Assembly (NCBI GenBank): GCA_946186225.1
Contig: CAMHMK010000007.1
Coordinates: forward strand, 1 to 32,612
Direction: 5' to 3'
Length of the DNA: 32,612 nt
From: an uncultured Clostridia bacterium
GTDB taxonomy: Bacteria > Bacillota > Clostridia > Oscillospirales > Oscillospiraceae
Positions within the stretch are counted from its first letter, which is position 1. The number at the start of each line of letters is the position of its first letter. The notes below the pieces were generated by a model. It was not told the origin of the DNA. It ran no database searches and saw only the letters and a list, made by a program, of their open reading frames with translations. The position numbers were made by a program, and so were the translations under genes. Of this stretch, positions 23,846 to 32,556 are shown in pieces.

Positions 23846-24979
23846 TTATGCCTCTGTCACGCAGATGTCTCCGCTGACCGTGTGGATGGAGCAGAGGTCC
23901 GCGTCCGGCGCTGCGCTGCCGGGGAGGCTGACGTCGCCGCTGAGGGTGTGGGGCTCAAAGCGCATCGGACGCAGGAACTCGGCGTCCACGTCGCCGCTGA
24001 CGGTGCGGAGGGTGGCCCCGTGGGCGTCGCAGCCCGCCAGCCGCAGGTCGCCGCTGGCGGTCACGGCAGTCAGCGGGCCGGCACAGATCACGCGCTCCAG
24101 GTCCAAATCGCCGCTGGCGGTTTTCAGCTCGGCCCGGTCGCAGGAGAGCAGCTCGATCCCCAGGTCCCCGCTCGCGGTCTGGAGGGTCGCGGCGCGGCAG
24201 CGGAGGTTTTCTCCGTTCACGTCGCCCGAGGCCGCGCCGACCCAAAGCTCGCCGGAGAGCTCCGTGCCCTCGAGCTTGACGTCGCCGGAGGCGGTCTCGA
24301 TCCGCATCTGCCCGCCGGAGAAGCCCTCCACGTCCACGTCGCCGCTGACCGTCTTCAGCGCGACGTTCCCAATGCGGAAGCCGCCGGTCAGGTCAAAGTC
24401 GCCGGACGTGAGCGAGACGCGCAGGCTTTCGTAGTCCGTCCCGGGCAGCCAGAGGGTGATCCGCTCGTCCGTCGAGAAGTCGGTTTCCAGCCGGGAGAAC
24501 AGCTTCTCGACCCAGCTTCCCCGCACCTCCCGGGTCAGGCCGCGCTCGCCGCGGATGCAGAGGGTTCCGTCCTCCACCACGACCTCCCGCGGCGCGTTTC
24601 TGCCGTTGCCCTCGTAGGTCACGTGGCAGTCTGCGTCGGGGGAGTGCTCCAGGCGCACGTCGGCGGCGCGGTTCTGGACCGAAATGGCCCGGAAGCCGCC
24701 GGGGACCGTCCAGTTGTCGCCCTCCCGGGCGGCTTTTTTTGTTTCCTGCCTGGGCTGCATATACTTTTGGATCAGCCCGGTCACGGGCCGGTCGGCCAGC
24801 ACGGCGGCGGCCAGCTCGTCCACGCTGCCCAGGGCCGCCACAGCGGCCTCCTCGTCCATGCCCTCGTCCACGCGGTCATCAATGAACTCACCGTAGTAAT
24901 CCAGGACGTTCTGCGCGTCCCCCTGGGGCAGATCGGCGAGACTGCGTCGCAGGGCGTCAAAAAAATCAGCCTTCTTCAT
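23846..24979 (-). CDS. HAAS/DUF1700-like N-terminal domain fused to DUF4097-like beta-solenoid repeats
   Basis: MKKADFFDALRRSLADLPQGDAQNVLDYYGEFIDDRVDEGMDEEAAVAALGS plus ten (T/A/V/L)SGD(V/L/F/I) repeats. Confidence 0.85.
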   Translation of the reverse strand: MKKADFFDALRRSLADLPQGDAQNVLDYYGEFIDDRVDEGMDEEAAVAALGSVDELAAAVLADRPVTGLIQKYMQPRQETKKAAREGDNWTVPGGFRAISVQNRAADVRLEHSPDADCHVTYEGNGRNAPREVVVEDGTLCIRGERGLTREVRGSWVEKLFSRLETDFSTDERITLWLPGTDYESLRVSLTSGDFDLTGGFRIGNVALKTVSGDVDVEGFSGGQMRIETASGDVKLEGTELSGELWVGAASGDVNGENLRCRAATLQTASGDLGIELLSCDRAELKTASGDLDLERVICAGPLTAVTASGDLRLAGCDAHGATLRTVSGDVDAEFLRPMRFEPHTLSGDVSLPGSAAPDADLCSIHTVSGDICVTEA

Positions 24980-25289
24980 GTTCCGTACCTCCGCATACAA
25001 AATTGTAGATGGAAGCGACTTCCTTCCATTCGTTCCGGAACTGGTCCAGACGGTCCAGCCCGGTTTGGGTGATGTGGTAATACTTGCGCAGCCGCCCGTT
25101 GTATTCCGCCGAGCGGACGGTGAGCTGGCCGGCGGTCTCCAGCCGCCGCAGGATCGGATAGAGCGTCGATTCCGCGATCTGGATGTAGGGCTTCACGTCC
25201 TTGATGATCTGATAGCCGTAGGAGTCCTCGTCCTTGATCGCCGCGAGCACGCAGACGTCCAGCAGCCCGCGCTTGAGTTGAATATCCAT
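24966..25289 (-). CDS. PadR family transcriptional regulator
   Basis: LLDVCVLAAIKDEDSYGYQIIKDVK, ESTLYPILRRLETAGQLTV, GRLRKYYHITQTGLDRL; 14-nt overlap with the downstream gene. Confidence 0.93.
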   Translation of the reverse strand: MDIQLKRGLLDVCVLAAIKDEDSYGYQIIKDVKPYIQIAESTLYPILRRLETAGQLTVRSAEYNGRLRKYYHITQTGLDRLDQFRNEWKEVASIYNFVCGGTEHEEG

Positions 25290-25306
25290 CGAATGCCCCC
25301 TTTCGT

Positions 25307-25333
25307 GTTATACTATACCACGCATAGTATAAC
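25307..25333. promoter_or_regulatory. Perfect palindrome, putative PadR operator
   Basis: GTTATACTAT-ACCACGC-ATAGTATAAC, 10-bp arms. Confidence 0.75.
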
Positions 25334-25340
25334 ATGTCAA
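25312..25340 (-). promoter_or_regulatory. Sigma70-type promoter for the padR operon
   Basis: Minus strand TTGACA-N17-TATAGT overlapping the palindrome. Confidence 0.75.
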
Positions 25341-25398
25341 GAGGGATTTTGTATTTTTTTCGGCAGAAGGCCGGATTCGCAACAGTTCAGCCCTGCGA

Positions 25399-25426
25399 AC
25401 AGTTGACAGTGGACAGTTGACAGTGG
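25399..25426. repeat. Tandem 14-bp repeat (ACAGTTGACAGTGG x2, plus partial third)
   Basis: 25399-25412 and 25413-25426 identical, followed by ACAGT. Confidence 0.85.
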
Positions 25427-25427
25427 A

Positions 25428-25533
25428 CAGTCACCAGGGACAAAGGACCGCCCTTCCAAATGCAGCAGCGAACACTGTTCGCCACGTCCGCCTTTGGCGG
25501 ACAAGTTCCTGCAGAAAAAATCCCTGGTGACTG
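25428..25533. repeat. Intergenic element with 13-bp terminal inverted repeats and internal short hairpins
   Basis: CAGTCACCAGGGA (25428-25440) vs TCCCTGGTGACTG (25521-25533); internal GCGAACA-C-TGTTCGC (25468-25482) and GTCCGCC-TTT-GGCGGAC (25486-25502). Confidence 0.75.
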
Positions 25534-25550
25534 GTCACTCACACGCAAAA

Positions 25551-25591
25551 CCTCCCCCGACAAGGGGAGGGGACCGCGAAGCGGTGGAGGG
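25551..25591. repeat. GC-rich short hairpin pair (CCTCCCC..GGGGAGG; ACCGC-GAA-GCGGT)
   Basis: Two adjacent hairpins in the same noncoding tract; resembles an interspersed repeat style seen in gut Clostridia. Confidence 0.6.
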
Positions 25592-25691
25592 ACAGGCTGC
25601 CGACGAGTGCGTGCTCAATTCCGCCGCAGGACTTGGGGTTGGACTGTTACGAGTGACCACATGAAAATTGCGAAAAACAGCCAAAAGCGGA

Positions 25692-25720
25692 TTGACTTTT
25701 CCCCGGGTTTTTGATAAAAT
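25692..25720 (+). promoter_or_regulatory. Sigma70-type promoter for the ATPase/oxidoreductase operon
   Basis: TTGACT-N17-TAAAAT. Confidence 0.7.
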
Positions 25721-25730
25721 AAGAACGATA

Positions 25731-25761
25731 GTCAGACATCTTGCAAAAGTTGTCTGACAAC
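25731..25761. promoter_or_regulatory. Paired operator-like motifs (GTCAGAC and GTTGTCTGACAAC)
   Basis: GTTGTC-T-GACAAC palindrome at 25749-25761, related inverted copy GTCAGAC at 25731-25737; centres 21 bp apart. Confidence 0.6.
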
Positions 25762-25781
25762 TGACAGGGAGGTCATCCGAG

Positions 25782-26498
25782 ATGAAAGACTACTGGGTCC
25801 TGATGGGCAGCTTCGGCAGCGGCAAGAGCGAGCTTGCGATCAATATGGCGCTGCAGGCGAGGAAGTCCGGGCCCTGTACCTTGGTCGATCTGGATGTCAT
25901 CAACGCCTATTTTCGCTCCAGCGAGCGTGCCGCGGATCTGGAGGCCGCGGGCGTGGAGCTGATCTCTCCGCCGTTTGCGATGGATAAGATCGAGATCCTG
26001 GCGCTGTCCCCGCGGGTCTACTCCGTGTTCACCCCGGGCGATGGGACCGTGATCTTTGACATCGGCGGCGACGACATCGGCACCGTCGCCCTTGGCCAGT
26101 ACAAGCCCAATTTCGCGAACATCCCGCCGGAGCGTCTTCACGTTCTGTTCATTGTCAACCCCCTTCGACCGATGGCGGCGAACGTGCCCAGCGCCCTGGC
26201 TGTGCTTGGCAATCTGCAGATCGCGGGCCGCATGGAGGTGACCGGCATCGTCAACAACGGCAACCTGGCCGGAATGACCGACTTCAGCCATCTTGTCATG
26301 GGCTACGATCTGGTGAAGGGTCTGTCTGAGCAGACCGGCATCCCGGTCTGGGGCACAGTGGGCACACAGAACGTGCTGGACGAATTCCGGAAGTACGCGC
26401 AGGAACACGATCTGGACGACGCGTATATCGGTCGGTATCAGCCGATCGAGGTGATGATGCACAGAAGCTGGGACAAGTACCTGTCAGAAGGCCTTTAA
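25782..26498 (+). CDS. P-loop NTPase/ATP-binding protein of unknown function
   Basis: Walker A GSFGSGKSE, TLVDLDVINAYFRSSE, Walker B-like VIFDIGGDDIG. Confidence 0.8.
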   Translation: MKDYWVLMGSFGSGKSELAINMALQARKSGPCTLVDLDVINAYFRSSERAADLEAAGVELISPPFAMDKIEILALSPRVYSVFTPGDGTVIFDIGGDDIGTVALGQYKPNFANIPPERLHVLFIVNPLRPMAANVPSALAVLGNLQIAGRMEVTGIVNNGNLAGMTDFSHLVMGYDLVKGLSEQTGIPVWGTVGTQNVLDEFRKYAQEHDLDDAYIGRYQPIEVMMHRSWDKYLSEGL

Positions 26499-26532: not shown

Positions 26533-26739
26533 ATGATTAAAGTAACCATCCTGGAGAACACCTGCAAGGGCTGCGGACTCTGCGTCCGTGCCTGCCCCAA
26601 GGGTGTGCTGGCAATCTCCACCTCCCACCTGAACGCCAAGGGCTATTATCCGGCCGAGGTCGTCAACGGGGAGGCCTGCATTGCCTGCACGTCCTGCGCC
26701 AAGACCTGCCCGGATGTCGCCATCCGGATCGAGAAGTAA
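26533..26739 (+). CDS. 2x[4Fe-4S] ferredoxin subunit of 2-oxoacid:ferredoxin oxidoreductase
   Basis: CKGCGLCVRACPKG and CIACTSCAKTCPD clusters, 68 aa. Confidence 0.92.
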   Translation: MIKVTILENTCKGCGLCVRACPKGVLAISTSHLNAKGYYPAEVVNGEACIACTSCAKTCPDVAIRIEK

Positions 26740-26752
26740 GGAGGAAGAGAGA

Positions 26753-27820
26753 ATGGCTTTGAAACTGATGAAGGGCTGCGAAGCGATTTCCGAAGCCGCC
26801 ATCCAGGCCGGCTGCCGTTATTTCTTCGGCTACCCGATTACCCCGCAAAACGACGTCCCCGAGTACATGTCCCGCCGTCTGCCTGAGGTCGGCGGCTGCT
26901 TCCTGCAGGCCGAGTCCGAGCTCGCGGCCATCAACATGGTCTACGGCGCGGGCGGCGCCGGCGCCAGAGCGATGACCTCCTCCTCCAGCCCCGGAATCTC
27001 CCTGAAGCAGGAAGGCATCTCCACCATTGCCGCTGCTGAGATCCCCGCTGTCATCGTCAACATGATGCGCGGCGGCCCCGGCCTTGGCAACATCCAGGCC
27101 TCCCAGGGCGACTATTTCCAGGCCGTCAAGGGCGGCGGTCACGGTGACTATCACGCTGTCGTCTACGCTCCCTCCTCCATCCAGGAGACCTGCGACATGA
27201 TGCAGCGCGCCTTCGACACCGCGGATACCTACCGCACCCCGGTCATCATCCTTGCCGACGGTCTGATCGGCCAGATGATGGAGCCCGTGGAGCTCAAGGA
27301 GAACCCCAACCCCACCATGCCCGACAAGCCCTGGGCCGCCACCGGCTACGATCCCAAGGGCACCAAGCCCCGCGCGGTCCTCAACTCCCTGTACATCGAG
27401 ACCGAGGACCTCAACACCCTGATCGACCGTCTGCATGCCCGCTACGAGGTCATCAAGCAGAAGGAAGTCCTGGTTGAGTGCTACAACACCGAGGGCGCCG
27501 AAATCGTTCTTTGCGCCTACGGCACCGTCGCCCGCGTCTGCAAGGCTGCGGTCAACGAGCTCAACGAAAAGGGCATCAAGGTCGGCCTGGTTCGCCCGAT
27601 CACCCTGTGGCCCTTCCCGACCGAAGCGGTCCACGACGCGGTTGCGCAGGATTCCGTCAAGGGCGTCCTGACCGTCGAAATGAGCGACGGCCAGCTCCTC
27701 GAGGACATCCGTCTGGCGGTCAACGGCGTCAAGCCCGTGGAGTTCATGGGCAAGGCCGGCTCCATCATGCCGACCACCGAAGGCATCATCGAGCGCATTA
27801 TGAAAATGAGGGAGGCATAA
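26753..27820 (+). CDS. 2-oxoacid:ferredoxin oxidoreductase alpha subunit (VorB/KorA-like)
   Basis: [62 protein letters not shown]; start trimmed. Confidence 0.93.
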
Positions 27821-27824
27821 GAGT

Positions 27825-28559
<735 letters not shown>

Positions 28560-28562
28560 TCC

Positions 28563-29099
28563 ATGATTGAGAAGAATATTTTCGCAGGATTCGGCGGCCA
28601 GGGCGTTCTGCTCATGGGCCAGCTTCTTGCCGCTGCCGCGATGCACGAAGGCAAGCACACCACCTGGGTCCCCTCCTACGGCCCCGAAATGCGCGGCGGC
28701 ACGGCCAACTGCTCCGTCATCCTCTCCGACAAGGAGATCGACAGCCCGATGGTCACCCGTCCCACCGCTCTGATCGTCATGAACCGCCCGTCCCTGGAAA
28801 AGTTTGAGGACACCGTGCTTCCCGGCGGCTCCATCTTCGTCAACAGCTCCATGATCGACGTCAAGGTGCAGCGCACCGACGTCAAGGCCTACTACGTTCC
28901 CTGCAACGAGCTGGCCGCGGAGCTCGGCAACAACAAGGTCGCCAACATGATCATGCTCGGCGCCTACCTGGGCTACTCCAAGTGCGTGGACATCGAAACC
29001 GTCCTCAAGGCCCTGCTGGAGAAGCTCGGCGAGCGCAAGGCCAAGCTGATCCCCCTGAACCGCGAGGCTCTGCTCAAGGGCGCTGCCTGCGTCAAATAA
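28563..29099 (+). CDS. 2-oxoacid:ferredoxin oxidoreductase gamma subunit
   Basis: NIFAGFGGQGVLLMGQLLAAAAMHEGKHTTWVPSYGPEMRGGTANCSVILSD. Confidence 0.95.
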   Translation: MIEKNIFAGFGGQGVLLMGQLLAAAAMHEGKHTTWVPSYGPEMRGGTANCSVILSDKEIDSPMVTRPTALIVMNRPSLEKFEDTVLPGGSIFVNSSMIDVKVQRTDVKAYYVPCNELAAELGNNKVANMIMLGAYLGYSKCVDIETVLKALLEKLGERKAKLIPLNREALLKGAACVK

Positions 29100-29153: not shown

Positions 29154-29182
29154 TGATTCATCAAACACGGAGGAATACTTCT

Positions 29183-30715
29183 ATGCCTCAATTCATCTCC
29201 CCCGCGCAGGCAGTGGACCTGATTCGCGATGGACAGGAGATCATTTTCAACAACTTCCTCGGCATGTACAATGCCGAGCAGCTTCTGATCGCCCTGGATA
29301 AGCGCTTCGTGGAAACCGGTCATCCGAAGGACCTCACCGTCTACTGCACCGCCGGTCTGGGCGGCTGGACGATCGGCTCCCCCTGCGAGCAGTTCATCGT
29401 CCACGGTGCGGCCAAGACCCTTATCATGTCGCACTACGCCTCCATGCCCGAGACCGCGCAGATGATCCTCGACAACAAGATCGAGGCCTATAACCTGCCC
29501 TTCGGCGCGATGTCGCACTGCGTCCGCGCTGCGGCCAGCGGTCAGGACTACATCATCTCCGACGTGGGCCTGAACCTCTTCGTGGACCCGAAGCACAACG
29601 GCTATCAGCTCAACGAGCGGTCGAAGCAGGAGCTGGTCCAGGAGATCGTCATCGACGGCAAGCGCCGCCTGAAGTACAAGACCCCCAAGCCCGAGGTGGC
29701 TCTGCTCAAGGCCAGCAGCTGCGACGAGTACGGCAACATCTCTTTTGAAAACGAGCCCGTCCTCGGTGACCCGCTCTCCATCGCCCAGGCCACAAAGCGC
29801 CGCGGCGGCATCGTCATCGTCCAGGTCGAGCGCAAGCTGGAACAGCCGCGCCGTCCCCTGGAGGTCATTGTCCCCTCCGTCCTCGTGGACTACATCTGCG
29901 TGACCCCGGAGCAGACCCAGATCCAGGGCATCCCCGGCACCGACGTCCACTACACCGGCGAGATCCCCATGACCGACGAGGAGCTGGAAGCCTACGCCAA
30001 GGATCACGCCTCCAACAAGCCGAAAGACCTGGCCAAGCGCCTGATTGCCCGCCGCGCAGCCCGCGAGCTCCGCGAGGGCGACGTGGTCAACATCGGCGTC
30101 GGCGCGCCCGAGTTCGTAGCTGTGGAAGCGGCCCGCACGGGCATGCTCTCCAAGGTTGCCCTGACCGTGGAGGCCGGCTCCATGAAGGGCCTGCCCGCCG
30201 GCGGTCTGGCCTTCGGCGCTGCCATGGGCGCGCAGAGCATCTGCACCACCGCCGAGCAGTTCGACCTCTATGACGGCGGCGGCCTGTCCATCTGCTTCAT
30301 CGGCGCCCTCGAGGTGGACGCCGAGGGCAACGTCAACGGCCACTACAACCCGAAGAAGCTCTCCGGCATCGGCGGCTTCATCAACATCACCCAGTTCACC
30401 CATAAGGTCGTCTTCTGCACCACCTTCTCCGCGGGCGGCCTGGAGATCGAGCACTCCGACGAGACTGGCCTGAAGATCCTCAGCGAGGGCCGTTTCCCGA
30501 AGTTCACCAAGCACGTCACCGCGCTCAGCTTCTCCGCCGAGAACGCCCACGCCAACGGCCAGGAGGTCGTCTACGTGACCGAGCGCTGCGTCTTCCGTCT
30601 GGGTCAGAACGGCCTGGTCCTCACCGAGGTTGCCAAGGGCGTGGACGTCCAGAAACAAATCCTCGACCTGCTCCCGTTTACCGTGGAAGTGGCCGAGGAT
30701 CTGAAGGAGTTCTAA
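29183..30715 (+). CDS. Acyl-CoA:acetate/3-ketoacid CoA-transferase (single-chain alpha+beta fusion)
   Basis: MPQFISPAQAVDLIRDGQEIIFNNFLG, TAGLGGWTIGSPCEQFIVHGAAKTLIMSHYA, NIGVGAPEFVAVEAARTG...LTVEAGSMKGLPAGGLAFG; start trimmed to ATG with aggag RBS. Confidence 0.9.
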   Translation: MPQFISPAQAVDLIRDGQEIIFNNFLGMYNAEQLLIALDKRFVETGHPKDLTVYCTAGLGGWTIGSPCEQFIVHGAAKTLIMSHYASMPETAQMILDNKIEAYNLPFGAMSHCVRAAASGQDYIISDVGLNLFVDPKHNGYQLNERSKQELVQEIVIDGKRRLKYKTPKPEVALLKASSCDEYGNISFENEPVLGDPLSIAQATKRRGGIVIVQVERKLEQPRRPLEVIVPSVLVDYICVTPEQTQIQGIPGTDVHYTGEIPMTDEELEAYAKDHASNKPKDLAKRLIARRAARELREGDVVNIGVGAPEFVAVEAARTGMLSKVALTVEAGSMKGLPAGGLAFGAAMGAQSICTTAEQFDLYDGGGLSICFIGALEVDAEGNVNGHYNPKKLSGIGGFINITQFTHKVVFCTTFSAGGLEIEHSDETGLKILSEGRFPKFTKHVTALSFSAENAHANGQEVVYVTERCVFRLGQNGLVLTEVAKGVDVQKQILDLLPFTVEVAEDLKEF

Positions 30716-31398
30716 TCCAGCTCGATGGAGAACTCCCGCATGGTATTGATGATGTGCAGATACATCGCGGCCTTTGCGCCTTCGGCGTTTCGCTCGCGCA
30801 GATACTGCATGATCAGCCGATGATCGTAGATCGTCATCTCTGACACCTGCGGGGACTCATTGGCCAGGATGATGCCGCGGTGGATCGCGCGATTGAAGAT
30901 CGGCAGCAGCGACGTGATGAACGGATTGTGCGTGGCCGAGGCGATCGCGTTGTGAAACTGCTGCTCGCTCTCGTCCCACTGGGGGTCGCGCCGCCGGATC
31001 ATCTGCTCGTCCAGCTGGCCGAAGCGGAGGATCGTTTCGATCTCTTCGTCGGTGGCCCGCAGACAGGCGTACCGCGCGGCCTGGGGCTCAAACATCAGGC
31101 GCATCTCATAGAGGTCCTTGGTGTTGACGTTGGTGTTCTGGATCCTTAAAACGTCGTAGTCGGCGTGAATGCTCTGGCTGCGCGTCACGAAGGTCCCCAC
31201 GCCGCGCCGCACCTCCACCAGTCCTCTGGTGGCCAGGATCCGCAGCGCCTCGCGCAGGGTCGTGCGGCTGATCTCCAGCTCCCCGGCCAGTTCCATCTCG
31301 TTTGGCAGCTTGTCGCCGGGACGGAATCTCCCGTGGGTGATCATCTCCATGATCCGGTCCGCTGCGCGGACGGAAAGGGCGTTGCCCGCATAGGCCAT
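30712..31398 (-). CDS. FadR/GntR family (FCD domain) transcriptional regulator
   Basis: VRAADRIMEMITHGRFRPGDKLPNEMELAGELEISRTTLREALRILATRGLVEVRRGVGTFV wHTH, C-terminal FCD helices. Confidence 0.94.
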   Translation of the reverse strand: MAYAGNALSVRAADRIMEMITHGRFRPGDKLPNEMELAGELEISRTTLREALRILATRGLVEVRRGVGTFVTRSQSIHADYDVLRIQNTNVNTKDLYEMRLMFEPQAARYACLRATDEEIETILRFGQLDEQMIRRRDPQWDESEQQFHNAIASATHNPFITSLLPIFNRAIHRGIILANESPQVSEMTIYDHRLIMQYLRERNAEGAKAAMYLHIINTMREFSIELD

Positions 31399-31421
31399 AT
31401 GTCCCACCTCCCAATACCTGC

Positions 31422-31479: not shown

Positions 31480-32556
31480 GTGAAAGGTCTCACCATTATC
31501 AAAACCGAACACCCCAAGGAAAAGCCCGCCAAGGGCGCGAAGCTCGGCTTCGGCTCGGTCTTCACCGACCACATGATGCTCATGGAATACGACGAGGGCA
31601 AGGGCTGGCATGACGCCCGCATCGTCCCCTTCGGCCCCATTACGCTGAGCCCGGCCTCCACCGTCCTGCACTATGCGCAGGAGACCTTTGAGGGTATGAA
31701 GGCCTACCGTGCCGAGGACGGCCGCGTCCTGCTGTTCCGGCCCGAGGAGAACTTCAAGCGTCTGAACATCTCCAACGAGCGCCTCTGCATCCCCCAGCTG
31801 GACGTGGACTTCTGCGTCGAGAGCCTGAAGGAGCTTGTCAACCTCGATAAGGAGTGGATCCCCGAGGATCCCGCCGCTTCCCTCTACATCCGCCCGATGG
31901 TCATCGGCAACGAGCCGAAGCTGGGCGTCAAGGAAGCCAGCTCCTATATCTACGCCGTTCTGCTCAGCCCCTCCGGCGCCTACTATGAGAGCGGCCTGAA
32001 GCCCGTTCCCATCTACGTCGAGGAAGAGTACGTCCGCGCGGTCCGCGGCGGCACCGGCTTTGCCAAGACCGGCGGCAACTACGCCTCCTCCATGCGCGCC
32101 CAGGAGGTTGCCCACTCCAAGGGTTATTCCCAGGTTCTGTGGCTCGATGGCGTCGAGCGCAAGTACATCGGCGAGGTCGGCGCGATGAACATCTTCTTCG
32201 TCGTGGACGGCGAGGTCCTGACCCCCGAGCTGGACGGCTCCATCCTCTCCGGCATCACCCGCAAGTCCATGATCCAGGTCCTGCGCGACAAGGGCTACAA
32301 GGTCACCGAGCGCCAGATCACCATCCAGGAGATCGCCGACGCCTATGACGCCGGCAAGCTGAACGAAGTCTTCGGCACCGGTACCGCCGCTGTCATCAGC
32401 CCGGTCGGCGAGCTGAAGTGGGGCGACAAGGTCATGAAGATCAACAACGGCGAGATCGGCCCGATCTCCGCCTACGCCTACAAGACCCTCACCGATATCC
32501 AGTGGGGCCGCGTCAAGGATCCGTACGGCTGGTCCGTCGAAATCGGCCATATGTAA
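31480..32556 (+). CDS. ilvE: Branched-chain-amino-acid aminotransferase
   Basis: GTG start after aagagg; PASTVLHYAQETFEGMKAYR, FAKTGGNYASSMRAQEVAHSKGYSQVLWLDGVERKYIGEVGAMNIFFV, FGTGTAAVISPV. Confidence 0.93.
   Translation: MKGLTIIKTEHPKEKPAKGAKLGFGSVFTDHMMLMEYDEGKGWHDARIVPFGPITLSPASTVLHYAQETFEGMKAYRAEDGRVLLFRPEENFKRLNISNERLCIPQLDVDFCVESLKELVNLDKEWIPEDPAASLYIRPMVIGNEPKLGVKEASSYIYAVLLSPSGAYYESGLKPVPIYVEEEYVRAVRGGTGFAKTGGNYASSMRAQEVAHSKGYSQVLWLDGVERKYIGEVGAMNIFFVVDGEVLTPELDGSILSGITRKSMIQVLRDKGYKVTERQITIQEIADAYDAGKLNEVFGTGTAAVISPVGELKWGDKVMKINNGEIGPISAYAYKTLTDIQWGRVKDPYGWSVEIGHM

Follow-up and report, generated by a model that had tools for sequence, protein, structure and literature searches.

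Regulators of the GntR family that belong to the FadR subfamily (FCD), among them LldR, PdhR, GlcC and DgoR, recognise palindromes of the form TKGT-NNN-ACMA with a gap of 3 nt (Suvorova et al. 2015, PMC4494728), and an arginine in the place of FadR R35 is correlated with a G as the K of this motif (PMC4494728). In systems of the LldR/PdhR/GlcC/DgoR type the regulator gene adjoins its targets, and the paired sites stand at a constant distance and are described as cooperative (PMC4494728). LhgR, a GntR regulator of the lhgO locus, footprints on TTGTCTGACAA and TAGTCTGACAA (PMC8206213).

We considered here a doublet of candidate operators in the leader of a 2-oxoacid oxidoreductase operon, located in a stretch of 32,612 nucleotides from an uncultured Clostridia bacterium (hereafter the window; Table 1). 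From sequence comparison, with a probability of about 85%, we take this doublet to be the double DNA operator of the FCD regulator of the operon (GntR family, FadR subfamily). Like the LldR/PdhR/GlcC/DgoR-type operators, the sites are paired palindromes of the TKGT-NNN-ACMA type accompanied by an adjoining regulator gene; those operators, however, are located centrally between two divergent genes, whereas the doublet lies past the -10 of a single operon. The core of site 2, TTGTCTGACAA, fits the subfamily motif exactly, with 3 nt between GT and AC, and is identical to the footprinted LhgR site (PMC8206213). In site 1, TAGTCAGACAT, GT-NNN-AC is kept and the outer letters partly are not; its centre and its last base are not those of the second LhgR site, TAGTCTGACAA. 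LhgR is also unlike the present system in its ligand, L-2-hydroxyglutarate, in the genes concerned and in having its sites at two promoters, not in tandem (PMC8206213).

Compared with FadR (PDB 1HW1/1HW2; the residue numbering offset of 7 relative to PMC4494728 is a mapping made in the present analysis), the winged helix of the window regulator keeps R45, T46, T47, R49 and G66 and has M in place of R35, consistent with a TTGT rather than a TGGT half-site. Its DNA-contact residues are compatible with a TTGT/ACAA half-site. The C-terminal domain of the window regulator is a Pfam FCD domain, whereas that of E. coli FadR is of the acyl-CoA-binding type. The E. coli FadR site has the core GTCNGAC, which is common to the present sites. 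Such a regulator-operator pair is of a kind already well known, and its metabolic setting is informative; in the literature searched, we found neither a branched-chain 2-oxoacid oxidoreductase operon as a FadR-subfamily target nor a description of the regulon of this operon.

Table 1. Features of the operon and its leader (positions in the window)
Feature	Position	Strand	Basis or remark
-35 hexamer TTGACT	25692-25697	+	promoter search; TTGACT or TTGACA in related leaders
-10 hexamer TAAAAT, TG directly 5'	25715-25720	+	TAAAAT, TACAAT or TAGAAT in relatives
Candidate operator site 1 (weaker), ATAGTCAGACATC	25728-25740	.	family consensus NNNGTNNGACANC
Spacer between sites, 8 bp	25741-25748	.	length constant, sequence variable in 38 leaders
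Candidate operator site 2 (strong), GTTGTCTGACAAC	25749-25761	.	family consensus GTTGTCNGACAAC
Ribosome-binding site AGGGAGG	25766-25772	+	sequence
P-loop ATPase, first gene, preceded by the doublet	25782-26498	+	ATG at 25782; no Pfam or NCBIfam family matched
4Fe-4S ferredoxin-like subunit	26533-26739	+	Fer4
2-oxoacid oxidoreductase alpha subunit, VorB family (3-methyl-2-oxobutanoate)	26753-27820	+	NF005507, 522 bits, cut-off 399
2-oxoacid oxidoreductase beta subunit	27825-28559	+	family profile matches
2-oxoacid oxidoreductase gamma subunit	28563-29099	+	family profile matches
CoA-transferase	29162-30715	+	PF01144; nearest NCBIfam model FadX, below cut-off
FCD/GntR regulator, proposed binder of both sites	30712-31407	-	PF07729 and PF00392; start codon GTG 31407 or ATG 31398
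Branched-chain amino acid aminotransferase ilvE	31480-32556	+	TIGR01123, 410 bits, cut-off 250

Leader layout and predicted mode of action

Between 25500 and 25800 a single promoter-like site was detected, against 0.1 expected in shuffles; it is of the sigma-70 type with 17 bp between the -35 and the -10, and transcription probably starts near 25727. The original prediction had placed GTTGTC-T-GACAAC at 25749-25761 and a related copy upstream, with centres at 25734 and 25755 lying 21 bp apart and both sites just 3' of the -10, and we could confirm these positions in the sequence, together with a good -35/-10 pair upstream. A minor amendment concerns site 1: its last base is T and not A, so that every fixed position of TNGTNNNACNA except one is matched. 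Site 1 begins eight bases past the -10 and has its core at 25729-25739; its outer left arm is non-palindromic in this genome and the site is degenerate. Further upstream, the segment 25380-25640 is an interspersed repeat, parts of which are found elsewhere in the genome at 72-93% identity (contigs C17, C50, C71, C86 and C87), and which contains a 14-bp tandem repeat, ACAGTTGACAGTGG, at 25399-25431.

We infer that one regulator dimer would bind each palindrome, probably cooperatively, and would repress rather than activate. As 21 bp corresponds to two helical turns, the neighbouring dimers would share one face of the DNA and cover approximately +1 to +35 of the transcript, so that, once bound, they would prevent the promoter from opening or elongation from getting under way; this position suggests repression. 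The ATPase-Fer4-oxidoreductase-CoA-transferase genes would then be held off until the protein is released by a small carboxylate that the pathway produces or consumes. As a first guess, the most likely ligand is a branched-chain 2-oxoacid, since such a compound is shared by ilvD, the oxidoreductase and ilvE.

The same protein could instead bind and activate, or it could be a repressor that responds to an abundant end product and not to a substrate, in an operon for amino acid synthesis; we hold this to be rather improbable. FCD proteins of both signs exist, CitO activating when citrate is present (PMC4746285), and a biosynthetic role is plausible in a genus without ilvC and a typical ilvD; by established promoter logic, however, sites past the -10 are in a repressing and not an activating position.

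The FCD gene and its link to the doublet

The FCD/GntR regulator that had been announced at the other end of the operon is indeed encoded there (Table 1). The usual order in the genus, all in one direction, is doublet-ATPase-Fer4-VorB-beta-gamma-CoA-transferase-FCD-ilvE, and throughout the order the genes for the ferredoxin and the VorB-type oxidoreductase are repeatedly preceded directly by such a P-loop ATPase gene. With its gene inside the operon, the regulator would form a feedback loop. The FCD gene is inverted in this genome, in G020, G011, G026 and in several others, where it carries its own promoter-like sequence; no operator was found in the FCD/ilvE intergenic region of this inverted arrangement, in which it differs from many autoregulated members of the family.

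All 17 leaders of operons with FCD carry the doublet, with best matrix scores of 20.0-21.2, a count that includes G002 and G014, incomplete genomes in which the FCD gene was not found and contigs end within or near the operon. By contrast, none of the 24 homologous operons without an FCD ortholog (absence judged per genome at 1e-50 in a family sample) has it, their best matrix score being at most 7.3; these operons are distant (ATPase 40-44% identical), so that the association of FCD gene and doublet is confounded with descent, and the presence of both shares one phylogenetic split with few independent events.

The nearest FCD paralogs, from other genera of the same bacterial family, are 41-49% identical to the window regulator, and ten of them are divergent to ilvD, this neighbour being NCBIfam-confirmed in two cases. 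As the matrix was built solely from operon leaders, these loci provide a fair test: the motif is present in 9 of the 10 FCD-ilvD intergenic regions, with at most 1 of 300 shuffles reaching the match, and the second-best match is exactly 19 bp off. The paralog loci thus have the same motif, likewise doubled, but with a 19-bp spacing, between divergent genes, and with genes of branched-chain amino acid synthesis. On sequence grounds, this motif is an independent line for the predicted FCD assignment. The doublets at these loci (L161-L163, L167-L171, L173 and L073) are TTGTCTGAC(A/T)A-like, with ilvC also nearby in some, and we found no description of FCD regulators divergent to ilvD in the literature searched.

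The proposal that the twin sites are likely bound by the FCD regulator is therefore supported by genome comparison as a predicted binding, given the operon linkage, the lack of any site where the FCD ortholog is missing, the motif at the ilvD paralogs and the DNA-contact residues. Operators of another regulator, such as the PadR-family protein (gene at 24966-25289) or a different member of the GntR family, would be an improbable explanation of the sites. This genome has the PadR gene about 400 bp upstream, and G020 has one near the operon, but PadR adjoins the operon only in these two sister genomes, whereas the sites are present in all FCD operons; moreover, the motif is of the FadR-subfamily type (PMC4494728), and no regulator gene other than FCD was seen to accompany the operon. 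PadR was rejected as the binder, being unlinked to the operon in relatives.

Conservation of the doublet

Both sites were retained, without exception 21 bp apart, in all 38 distinct related leaders; the pattern used for collection itself fixes this spacing for most of them, and the leaders found by protein homology show the same spacing. Every leader of a close ATPase ortholog keeps both sites. In site 1, the bases G, T, G, A, C and A are invariant in the 38 leaders, of which 37 also share the final C; in site 2, invariance extends to 9 of 13 columns, with a perfect palindrome in 32 of the 38. Information per column reaches 1.81 bits in site 2 and 1.33 in site 1, against 0.48 in the spacer, 0.32 before site 1 and 0.60 downstream; mean pairwise identity falls from 0.93 in site 2 to 0.81 in site 1 and to 0.40 in the spacer and upstream sequence. 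Relatives differ by a few bases in how far site 1 lies from the -10. A spacer of fixed length and free sequence suits two protein dimers on one DNA face. Conservation upstream of orthologous operons, the lack of which had been named as a refutation of the original prediction, was thus found, the sites and the 21-bp spacing outlasting their diverged surroundings.

The full site, TTGTCNGACAA, has a single occurrence in the 1.8-Mb genome, which is the one described here. The family consensus of site 2, GTTGTCNGACAAC, was found in 16 of 118 genomes searched, 14 of these at the orthologous leader; in two further members of the genus, G005 and G019, the doublet is present but the strong site deviates by one base. 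When about 85,000 bacterial and archaeal genomes were scanned for the doublet, with 18 bases fixed and an estimated chance expectation of about 7.5, 47 matches were returned, of which 36 lie 51-113 bp before an ATPase ortholog and 11, approximately the chance number, elsewhere. The 36 operon matches all belong to uncultured Clostridia/Oscillospiraceae-type genomes and, where the host is named, mostly to those from ruminants. When other regulon targets were sought with TTGTCNGACAA across 23 genomes of the genus, matches were not above the backward control; the contexts viewed beyond the operon resemble coding sequence, terminators and unrelated leaders, and no second target was found among them.

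The two inverted repeats might also act in the transcript, as a leader hairpin controlling translation or elongation, and we regard this as quite unlikely. The fold GTCAGACAtCTT-GCAA-AAGtTGTCTGAC is spelled as had been proposed, and energy minimisation of the leader gives this structure (-18.1 kcal/mol, z -2.5), but two copies of any one palindrome fold in this way, and an RNA role appears weak as covariation is not convincing. The overall covariation score was reached by only 13 of 500 shuffles and the inner pair 11:18 is altered on both sides in 9 of 33 sequences; however, sequence relatedness may explain this two-sided change, and neither two-sided changes nor further pair types exceed the shuffles. 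Six of the eight outer pairs are invariant, 3:26 is broken in 6 of 33 sequences and 4:25 in 12 of 33, and pair 9:20 is mismatched in most. No terminator-like T-run was found after the hairpin, an Rfam search of 25300-26000 gave no match, the spacer is unconserved and the strong site is nearly a perfect palindrome by itself. That the palindromes arose by chance and have no function is refuted by their conservation and near-exclusive placement in relatives, even though TNGTCNGACNA, with one mismatch allowed, shows no enrichment in the window (12 matches vs 10 expected in shuffles).

Metabolic setting and doublets outside the operon

A DNA operator of the FCD regulator would place a branched-chain oxoacid pathway of uncultured rumen and gut Oscillospiraceae under a testable regulator-operator pair, which started as a hunch from raw sequence. 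ilvC is absent across the genus, including the 100%-complete G020, and ilvD is absent across the genus except for a sub-threshold dehydratase in this genome (contig C131, 102-1775; 511 bits vs a cut-off of 618); for both genes the 14 control genomes were positive. Without ilvC and a typical ilvD, the operon could supply, rather than degrade, branched-chain amino acids, and the oxidoreductase/CoA-transferase/ilvE operon may be the route of the genus to these amino acids, from branched fatty acids. Tentatively, the FCD clade could be a switch of branched-chain amino acid supply which controls ilvD/ilvC in relatives and which, in these rumen bacteria, possibly moved together with its operator to an operon of CoA-transferase, 2-oxoisovalerate oxidoreductase and aminotransferase, which would make the amino acids through reductive carboxylation of branched short-chain fatty acids, and would there sense a branched-chain 2-oxoacid. 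The dependence of many rumen bacteria on branched volatile fatty acids is a long-established trait, and both switch and ligand would bear on its causes if the operon does convert branched fatty acids into branched-chain amino acids, as the lack of ilvC and a typical ilvD suggests.

Doublets of a similar kind were also seen in other bacteria. A contig of Asaia bogorensis (L131:2658-2691) has two perfect GTCGTTGTCTGACAACGAC palindromes 21 bp apart. In Pluralibacter, a reverse-strand doublet (L125:3466-3496) precedes by about 70 bp an ORF that begins like a TRAP-type substrate-binding protein; instead of a chance match, this doublet may be a genuine operator for a different FCD regulator.
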